NCBI RefSeq assembly: GCF_004336745.1
Contig: NZ_SJXD01000011.1
Location: 124,001 to 188,000 of the forward strand
From: Roseococcus sp. SYP-B2431
GTDB lineage: Bacteria > Pseudomonadota > Alphaproteobacteria > Acetobacterales > Acetobacteraceae
Direction of reading: 5' to 3'
DNA: 64,000 nucleotides
A program made the position numbers and the translations under genes. Positions 29,461 through 34,492 of this stretch are shown in pieces. Each line of letters starts with the position of its first letter. Position 1 is the stretch's first letter. The notes beneath the pieces are model-generated. The model was not told the DNA's origin, searched no databases, and saw nothing but the letters and a program-made list of their open reading frames with translations.

Positions 29461-30579
29461 TCAACCCTTGAACCGCAACAGTCTCTCGGGATCCGGCACC
29501 ACGCCGATCCCCGGTCCGGGCGGCAGGATGGCCTGACCGCCGCGCACCGTCACGGCGCCATTCCTTATAATATCCTCCGCCAGCATGCCATGCGTGACGC
29601 TAAGGCCCCATTCGACGTCCGGCAGGAGGGCCGCGAGATGCAGCGCGGCGGCGGCGCCCACCGAGGTCTCCGCGATCTTGCACGCCAGCGTGCCGCGCAT
29701 GCCGTTCTCGCGCAGCAGCGCATCGGCCGCGAGGGTGGGCAGCAGCCCGCCGAGCTTGATCGACTTCAGGCCGAATCCGGCCGCGAGTCCGCGATGCGCC
29801 GGGATGTCGCGCAGCCCGTGCAGCCCCTCGTCGATGCAGATCGGGCAGCCGGGCTGCCGCGCCAGCACGGCGAGGCCGGCGAGGTCGTCGTCGAACAGGG
29901 GTTGTTCCAGATAGTCGAGCGTGCCCTCGGGCAGGGCTGCGCGAAAGGCGCTCGCGGCCGTGATGTCCCAGGCCATGTTGGCGTCGCCCGAAAGATGGGC
30001 CTCCGGGCCGAGTGCCGCGCGCAGCGCGCGGATGAGCGCCGCATCCTCCCGCGGATCGGCGCGCAGTCCAAGCTTCACCTTGATATGTCGGAAGCCCTCT
30101 GCCTGCGCGGCGCGCGCGGCCGCCAGCACCGAGGCGTCGTCGGCCCCGCCGATCATGGCAATGGCGGGCACGGAATCGCGCAGCGGCGCGCCGAGGAAGC
30201 GCGAGAGCGGCAGCCCCGCGCGCCGCGCGGCGAGGTCGAGCACGGCCATCTCGGCGGCGGCCTTGGCGCCGGTGTTGCCGCGGATGGCGCGGGCCAGGCG
30301 CGGGCCGATCGCGTCCGCATCGGGCAGCGCCTCGCGCAGCAGGGCCGGGCCGAGATAGCGCCCGGCGACCTCGGCCATGCCGGCCAGCACCTCGCCGGTC
30401 ATGGTCGGCGCGACGCTGGCCTCGCCCCAGCCGGAGCGACCCTCGGCGTCGCGCAGCTCGATCAGCAGGGTTTCGGCGTCGGTGATCGTCTCGCTGGCGA
30501 GCAGCAGCGGCTTCTTCAGCGGAATGCGCAATGGCCAGACAGCGACATCAGCGATCCGGAGGGGCCAGGCAAAGCTCAT
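29461..30579 (-). CDS. Enolase-superfamily enzyme (muconate lactonizing/dipeptide epimerase type)
   Basis: This 372-aa protein from ATG 30579 has an N-terminal capping domain (PLRIPLKKPLLLASETI) and a TIM barrel. Visible features are KVKLGLR (the KxK base motif), LSGDANMAWD (metal Asp), YLEQPLFDDD (metal Glu), ICIDEGLHGL (metal Asp/Glu) and GLKSIKLGGL (second lysine). These fit the muconate lactonizing subgroup, which includes L-Ala-D/L-Glu epimerases and o-succinylbenzoate synthases. The exact reaction cannot be told. The GAF gene follows directly. Confidence 0.85.
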   Translation of the reverse strand: MSFAWPLRIADVAVWPLRIPLKKPLLLASETITDAETLLIELRDAEGRSGWGEASVAPTMTGEVLAGMAEVAGRYLGPALLREALPDADAIGPRLARAIRGNTGAKAAAEMAVLDLAARRAGLPLSRFLGAPLRDSVPAIAMIGGADDASVLAAARAAQAEGFRHIKVKLGLRADPREDAALIRALRAALGPEAHLSGDANMAWDITAASAFRAALPEGTLDYLEQPLFDDDLAGLAVLARQPGCPICIDEGLHGLRDIPAHRGLAAGFGLKSIKLGGLLPTLAADALLRENGMRGTLACKIAETSVGAAAALHLAALLPDVEWGLSVTHGMLAEDIIRNGAVTVRGGQAILPPGPGIGVVPDPERLLRFKG

Positions 30580-30608
30580 GGCGCAGGGAACCACACTCCC
30601 CGCCAATG

Positions 30609-30637
30609 AAAAACCCGCCGCCAGAACTGGCGACGGG
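30609..30637 (-). terminator. Intrinsic terminator, distal copy
   Basis: This is the same hairpin in copy 1 of the element (30614-30637), with one C-A mismatch that is a G-U wobble on the minus strand, followed by five U residues. It would act as a backup terminator before the enolase-family gene, which starts at 30579. Confidence 0.7.
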
Positions 30638-30760
30638 TTCCCAACTCTCCGGCCGCGAATGCGGCCGGCGCGCCCAGGACTACCGGACGGCCTCGCGCGA
30701 CTGCGGCGGCGCGAAGCCAAGCCGCCGGAGGCGGCGCCCGGCGTCTGAGGGCACCCCAAC

Positions 30761-30790
30761 AAAAAACCCGTCGCCAGAACTGGCGACGGG
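30761..30790 (-). terminator. Intrinsic terminator, proximal copy, after glnA
   Basis: A perfect 11-bp stem, CCCGTCGCCAG (30767-30777) with CTGGCGACGGG (30780-30790), is followed on the minus strand by six U residues (30761-30766). It lies about 120 nt after the glnA stop in the second copy of the tandem element. Confidence 0.8.
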
Positions 30791-30910
30791 CTTCCAACTC
30801 TCCGGCCGCAAGCGCGGCCGGCGCGCCCAGGACTACCGTTCGGCTTCGCGCCACCGTGGCGGCGCGAAGCCAAGCGCGCGGAGCGCGCGCCCGGCGTCTG
30901 AGGGCATCAA

Positions 30911-32335
<1,425 letters not shown>

Positions 32336-32469: not shown

Positions 32470-32955
<486 letters not shown>

Positions 32956-34416: not shown

Positions 34417-34492
34417 GCGGTCGTAGCTCAGGTGGTAGAGCGCCAGGTTGTGGTCTTGGATGTCGCGGGTTCGAGTCCCGTCGATCGCCCCA
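34417..34492 (+). tRNA. tRNA-His (GTG anticodon)
   Basis: This 76-nt cloverleaf has acceptor arm GCGGTCG pairing with CGATCGC, a D arm (AGCTC...GAGC), and an anticodon stem CCAGG/CTTGG around loop TTGTGGT with GTG at the anticodon. It has a standard T arm (GCGGG-TTCGAGT-CCCGT region) and an encoded CCA end. No integrase or partial duplicate of the 3' end was seen nearby. Confidence 0.96.

Follow-up and report, generated by a model that had tools for sequence, protein, structure and literature searches.

A dispersed, structured intergenic repeat in a group of Acetobacteraceae, present as two tandem copies behind glnA of Roseococcus sp. SYP-B2431

In Roseococcus sp. SYP-B2431, the gap between glnA (glutamine synthetase; 30911..32335, minus strand) and the next gene is occupied by two similar, hairpin-rich sequences in tandem, which raises the question of whether they are a structured RNA selected on the glnA transcript, as a preliminary description proposed, or members of a family with a wider role. 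Coordinates refer to the window, the whole stretch of 64,000 nucleotides that was analysed (positions 124,001 to 188,000 of contig NZ_SJXD01000011.1). Both sequences are copies of a structured non-coding repeat, one that is dispersed over intergenic regions in a group of Acetobacteraceae.

The tandem units behind glnA

On the glnA strand the direct repeat consists of units at 30756-30906 and 30603-30753, each of 151 nt, 87% identical and 153 nt apart from start to start; the tandem pair is thus real, with a length and period somewhat different from the ~145 nt and ~152 nt given before. In each unit a core of ~107 nt precedes a terminator-like hairpin and its T-run, and this minus-strand ending, already described, can be seen in the sequence of both copies. 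The core nearest glnA (30799..30906, minus strand; copy 2 of the preliminary description) starts 4 nt past the TGA stop codon of glnA and scores 103.0 bits (E 8.4e-18) against R1, a covariance model built from 31 copies of the SYP-B2431 genome; the farther core (30646..30753, minus strand; copy 1) scores 98.1 bits (E 7.5e-17). The terminator-like hairpins behind the near copy (30756..30798, minus strand; fold z -5.77) and the far copy (30603..30645, minus strand; fold z -5.13) both lie outside the dispersed core, and are the two matches of a simple terminator scan of 30400-31000, in which shuffled sequences gave a mean of 0.7. The downstream gene (29461..30580, minus strand, with its start variously placed at 30580 or 30531) had been called enolase; its translation reads instead as an enolase-superfamily protein of racemase/epimerase-like type, and the name rests on that reading. 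Upstream of glnA on the same strand, an open reading frame at 32470-32820 reads as a P-II (GlnB-like) protein, and a tRNA gene lies at 34417-34489 (Rfam RF00005, 60.3 bits).

The copies differ in the hairpin P3, which has arms GCGCGC/GCGCGC in the copy nearest glnA (30874..30888, minus strand) and GCCGCC/GGCGGC in the farther copy (30721..30735, minus strand), with the loop TCC in both. The reported exchange of GCCGCC-TCC-GGCGGC for GCGCGC-TCC-GCGCGC is exact, with three base pairs altered together. In the lower-coordinate copy the terminator stem has one U-G on the minus strand, as claimed; the 11-bp stem has nine Watson-Crick pairs, one G-U and one C-C mismatch, because of which the statement that its irregularities are G-U only falls just short of right. 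On the reverse strand the P3 loop reads GGA, the motif bound by CsrA. The idea of a CsrA sponge was rejected, CsrA (PF02599) not having been found in the SYP-B2431 genome in a search that detected it in 3 of 14 control genomes.

The glnA 3' ends of the genus show how far this arrangement extends. GlnA relatives at E <= 1e-150 are present in 20 of 21 genus genomes (SYP-B2431 counted), and the 3' ends were compared at 20 loci, 19 of which were read and five of which have a profile-HMM match. Full copies directly follow the glnA stop codon in SYP-B2431 (two), G017 and G008 (the second cut short by the contig end), and a full copy is located after the terminator T-run of glnA in G016 and G011. Inspection by eye shows shortened look-alikes in G001, G015, G005 and G007; G006 and G012 have GC-rich hairpins that could not be assigned; and no element is seen at the glnA 3' end of G010, G004, G003, G009, G020, G018 and G002. 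G013 has just 76 nt of glnA flank, and the match in G014 stops before the end of glnA and was left unread. In 20 stretches around glnA from nine other genomes, matches occur only at glnA (L222 and L223; L227 weakly, E 0.004), so these stretches yield no further pairs of filled and empty sites.

A dispersed family and its placement at gene edges

The suspicion that the unit belongs to a dispersed family of the genus proved correct, in a form that alters its limits: the repeated unit is the ~107-nt core, not ~145 nt, and lacks the terminator hairpin. It comprises a conserved 5' motif (CCCTCARRCGCCGGGCG), the P3 hairpin with its TCC loop, a linker (CTTGGCTTCG), the stem-loop P4 and the hairpin P5. 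A DNA search of the SYP-B2431 genome found 42 places, nearly all of which span the core and not the terminator. With R1 at E <= 0.001, at least 73 copies were counted in the genome, distributed over 69 sites; scoring was confined to 150 first-look candidates, which makes this a minimum. The core is present in all 21 genus genomes searched, at 2-134 places per genome (5-134 in the 13 that are >= 90% complete and <= 5% contaminated). By BLAST it was detected in 20 of 20 other genus members, in 3 of 15 genomes from other genera of the family, and in 2 of 24 genomes from other families of the class. The exact pattern of the 5' domain is found on at least 116 genome-contig stretches, and the matches listed include Falsiroseomonas, Neoroseomonas, Azospirillum and Croceicoccus as well as metagenome-assembled genomes named Porphyrobacter and Micavibrio. 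Without mismatch, which misses diverged copies, the pattern was recovered from 5 of 385 class genomes sampled (SYP-B2431 counted; five families represented) and from 2 of 398 genomes sampled across the phylum, each of them a member of the class. In plasmid records the 5' part alone matches, in Azospirillaceae records and one Burkholderia fragment; of five such contexts, three (L320, L322 and L323) are between co-directional genes, one (L319) is unannotated and one (L321) lies in 1.2 kb with no listed genes.

Rfam release 15 has no match to the element at the curated cut-off (the best in the element region is anti-hemB, 28.8 bits against a cut-off of 49.5); it identifies the tRNA alone in the window, and only tRNA and SRP RNA in 13 loci of other genera. 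Full-text literature searches returned no description of the family among the matches listed. Several variants were encountered along the way. A few SYP-B2431 copies (L306 1506-1627; L304; L308) have a different, longer P3 (GGTTGGGGC...GCCCCAACC, or decayed) between the same conserved linkers. A short variant of 82-83 nt (L084 1382-1463; L237 926-1008) has as its P4 a perfect hairpin with a TGAA loop, and G008 has additional matches of ~82 nt, some in tandem. In copies from Azospirillum, Paracraurococcus, Plastoroseomonas and Roseicella (L113, L118, L105, L102 and L049), a hairpin of variable sequence abuts the element upstream, and in some of these another hairpin follows it, both as judged by eye.

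No predicted gene covers the midpoint of any of the 73 SYP-B2431 copies, of which 28 are sense and 28 antisense to their neighbours, 16 lie between convergent genes and one between divergent genes; by site the figures are 27, 26, 15 and 1 of 69. Divergent spacers make up 58 of 228 background spacers (20-1000 nt, from the window and 20 genus stretches that come mostly from other genomes and are in part mutually orthologous), which gives a site-level binomial p of 4e-8. The element is nearly excluded from divergent spacers, those that contain only promoters. The other genus genomes have 32 sense, 24 antisense, 15 convergent and no divergent copies among 71 classed, with eight copies at locus ends and one beneath a predicted gene left out, and 16 classed copies from mixed genera are 9 sense, 1 antisense, 5 convergent and 1 divergent. 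At 50 of 69 sites a gene is closer to the 5' end of the element than to the 3' end, the median gaps being 9 nt and 32 nt (Wilcoxon p 5e-4): the 5' end hugs the gene boundary, past stop codons or, in reverse, ahead of start codons.

Where the 5' gap is less than 45 nt, a T-rich tract at -7 to -2 precedes the element in both orientation classes. Reversed copies often read TTTGAGGGC-N4-7-ATG, with GAGGGC, an A-rich spacer and ATG, and so the reversed end of the element (TGAGGGC plus the A-rich spacer) often seems to supply the Shine-Dalgarno sequence of the next gene. With gene boundaries taken from a simple codon-usage gene finder, and with orthologous sites not independent, 12 of 29 antisense SYP-B2431 copies have an ATG 4-10 nt beyond the element end (4-7 nt in 11 of the 12), and three more have one that touches the element; in other genus genomes the distance is 4-7 nt in 13 of 24. 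The copies off Shine-Dalgarno distance (14 of 29 in SYP-B2431, 11 of 24 elsewhere) include inner copies of tandem arrays. When the Shine-Dalgarno bonus was dropped from start calling, class counts and ATG gaps were unchanged, and Pfam profiles that align from residue 1 back the starts of NrdR (gap 4), a biotin carboxylase (gap -1) and a Cons_hypoth95 protein (gap 7). A corresponding role of the 3' tail as a Shine-Dalgarno sequence for sense copies was rejected, the spacing to the next start, by eye, not being fixed. Nor was there a shared regulon among the 20 of 73 contexts in which the gene at the 5' end was scanned; these neighbours are varied housekeeping, transport and regulatory genes, and a nitrogen theme is absent.

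Structure, covariation and strand

The structure placed on alignment A1 consists of P1 (2-5:15-18), P2 (12-14:37-39), P3 (19-24:29-34), P4 (42-47:81-86) and P5 (87-94:99-106). Of its 837 cells in 31 copies 98.3% pair, falling to 33-48% when the arms are slid by 1-3 columns, and changes on both sides of a pair occur in 77 cells against 26.5 in shuffles. No pair of the four in the outer stem P1 has changed on both sides, and P2 has one pair that varies on both sides (in 6 of 31 sequences); because of this, a pseudoknot of P1 with P2 is only suggested. A less circular test of P3 used 116 loci retrieved with a pattern in which the 10-18 bases of P3 were unconstrained. Of the 59 distinct inserts 48 are perfect, and 314 of 328 inner pairs are Watson-Crick (with 4 G-U and 3 A-C), against a mean of 55% and a maximum of 62% in 200 controls with the 3' arms re-dealt among inserts of equal length. 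When all loci are pooled, including some retrieved through similarity extending over P3, 62 of 77 inserts are perfect and 399 of 419 pairs are Watson-Crick. The loop is mostly [N]TCC, and some arms contain A-T pairs. Covariation of the paired bases, predicted from the two window copies, is therefore present beyond chance relative to shuffled and re-dealt controls, statistics in which phylogeny is not included. The pairing is strongly conserved, a pattern that selection on single-stranded DNA would equally produce.

Not all of the apparent compensation need have arisen base by base. All four combinations of P2 and P4 variants are represented in the 38 of 73 SYP-B2431 copies parsed for both, and L163 and L084 differ in P3 as a block but align over the remainder of the copy. 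Whole hairpin modules exchanged between copies, rather than stepwise compensation, seem to account for some of the 'compensatory' flips; stepwise compensation may nonetheless have operated across longer times.

Wobble pairs say little about which strand carries the structure. An initial count of 152 G-U against 18 A-C in 160 distinct copies fell to 58 against 16 once fixed G-U positions were excluded, and the assignment of a strand by wobbles was abandoned because a wider stem search of the SYP-B2431 copies gave 44 G-U and 10 A-C against means of 45 and 18 in 30 shuffles. The canonical stems have 7 G-U and 6 A-C in 88 distinct near-full copies (of 152 aligned). Across the family, wobbles are without clear strand bias beyond base composition. 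At the glnA locus the strand leans to that of glnA, in four copies only, because the 11-bp stem has 4 G-U and no A-C over these copies (two from SYP-B2431 and one each from two other genomes) and because the cores fold better on that strand: among 200 shuffles of each, z is -3.66 and -4.60 with no shuffle equally good, compared with -1.77 and -2.85 on the opposite strand, where 13 and 2 shuffles are equally good.

Origin, function and relation to known repeats

The comparison of sites gives glimpses of turnover. L003 carries the element and L090, its empty counterpart, does not; L022 and L180 have it in opposite orientations within one spacer; and by eye, L163 has one unit and L084 three (one truncated), as do L033 (one) and L252 (three). 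Some sites are common to several genomes (four in the L014/L165/L187/L160 group), and such sharing fits long-term function as well as persistence. The 5' CCCTC and a 3' tail containing GAGGG match weakly, by eye, in some copies, and the only empty site is too diverged for a duplication or the insertion ends to be recognised. The RAYT domain (Y1_Tnp, PF01797) is absent from the SYP-B2431 genome and from 20 of 21 genus genomes in a search positive for 5 of 14 control genomes; a RAYT-driven REP was rejected on these grounds. The sole genus genome with Y1 transposase domains, G016, has three matches (L157-L159), one with an internal stop codon.

On balance, the whole is probably best explained as a new structured repeat of REP/ERIC-like type, retained wherever its hairpins and its Shine-Dalgarno end do no harm or are of use. 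Such an element would spread or turn over as DNA by a non-RAYT activity, and would also multiply in tandem, with whole hairpin modules traded between copies. Copies would persist where co-transcription does no damage, presumably in mRNAs of both orientations. Behind a stop codon the hairpins may act as inter-cistronic or 3'-end mRNA structure; reversed before a start codon, the element end (TGAGGGC plus the A-rich spacer) may take over as the Shine-Dalgarno sequence. At glnA the unit is situated between the stop codon and the terminator-like hairpins, and hence most probably constitutes the structured 3' end of that gene's mRNA. A bolder reading, possible if doubtful, is a portable translation-boundary element, present in several alphaproteobacterial families and moved by a putative enzyme. 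Its terminus reads as a Shine-Dalgarno sequence in one direction and as CCCTC in the opposite one; for this reason it would target stop codons and Shine-Dalgarno sites, or be fixed there by selection, and could slip between co-transcribed genes with translation continuing.

The preference for a repeat tolerated in transcripts has to be weighed against other explanations. The structure may have been selected mainly as single-stranded DNA, its hairpins being recognition sites of a putative hairpin-recognising transposase or recombinase with no RNA function; the equal orientation relative to co-directional genes, the wobbles with no clear strand bias, the swings in copy number inside the genus, the two orientations in one spacer (L022/L180) and the tandem additions all agree with this. 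We consider it rather unlikely, since the Y1 domain, the one transposase type searched, is absent in 20 of 21 genus genomes, terminal repeats and target duplications are not established, and a single divergent copy in 73, together with the abutment to reading frames, points to effects on transcription or translation. Derivation from an insertion sequence as a classical MITE is very improbable: the element is short, non-coding and multi-copy, with one filled/empty pair (L003/L090) and the weak CCCTC/GAGGG match of some copies, but neither a consistent terminal inverted repeat nor a target duplication was seen, in a search for a parent element that covered Y1 transposases.

Another reading builds on the one offered at the outset: the element would be a regulatory RNA of the glnA transcript, either cis-acting or of sRNA type, with a tie to nitrogen control. 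It draws on the full copies behind glnA in SYP-B2431, G017, G008, G016 and G011, on the 4 G-U against no A-C in the 11-bp stem of four copies, and on the better fold z-scores on the glnA strand. It is nevertheless quite unlikely when 71 of 73 SYP-B2431 copies are elsewhere, 28 are antisense to both neighbours, the 20 scanned 5'-end neighbours show no nitrogen theme, and other genomes lack the glnA copy or have it in shortened or displaced form. An orientation random with respect to genes had been named beforehand as an outcome against RNA selection, and copies between co-directional genes are evenly divided (28 sense, 28 antisense); having no fixed direction, the family as a whole does not support selection on a single transcript strand. 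What survives of the proposal is local, in that wobbles and folding at glnA, in a tiny sample, fit the strand; as a general cause it is not supported.

A REP/ERIC-like repeat of this kind would matter in several ways. Many genus genomes have tens of copies, which may be relevant to operon expression, and the TTTGAGGGC-N4-7-ATG junction may be a simple way for an intergenic repeat to precede a start codon with translation intact. It also advises caution, as covariation within a repeat family can arise from hairpin-module swaps between copies. According to Di Nocera et al. (2013, PMC3733652), families of CGTC-tagged REPs occur in species from every alphaproteobacterial order and are missing from Acetobacteraceae; here, a larger multi-hairpin element is found in such a genome. 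Like the CGTC REPs as characterised in that paper, the element is dispersed and hairpin-forming, with no dedicated transposase, and its copies are mostly in unidirectional or convergent gaps near the 3' ends of open reading frames. Those REPs consist of a single stem of 8-9 bp whose first pairs are A/T, carry a CGTC tag and in most cases a tail of CCA type, and are predominantly arranged as head-to-head dimers (PMC3733652), whereas the new element is ~107 nt long, combines several GC-rich hairpins with conserved linkers and forms tandems head to tail; its reverse strand reads GGCGTC, GGCGTT or GGCGCC followed by TGAGGGC, with no stem of the CGTC REP kind beside it. The GTAG REPs associated with RAYT/TnpA-REP (PMC8266576) are likewise intergenic, hairpin-based and present in many copies. 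GTAG is absent from the 31-copy consensus, and both window copies hold it in the variable part, not ahead of a conserved hairpin. Br-REP1 of Bradyrhizobium (PMC5082802) is, like the new element, an alphaproteobacterial repeat of 3' untranslated regions, with three palindromes and strongly varying copy number; its central consensus, CCGGAATCTCGAGATTCCGG, has no relation to the new sequence that could be seen by eye. The nearest in size and style are the ERIC/BOX-type repeats: ERIC, BOX and RUP resemble the element in being ~100 nt or more, intergenic, folding and multi-copy, and RUP and BOX are over-represented between convergent genes (PMC2267715, PMC3049150). They differ from it in sequence, structure and taxa, and the available parts of their descriptions (PMC2267715, PMC3049150) contain no terminal Shine-Dalgarno placement such as that of the element described here.
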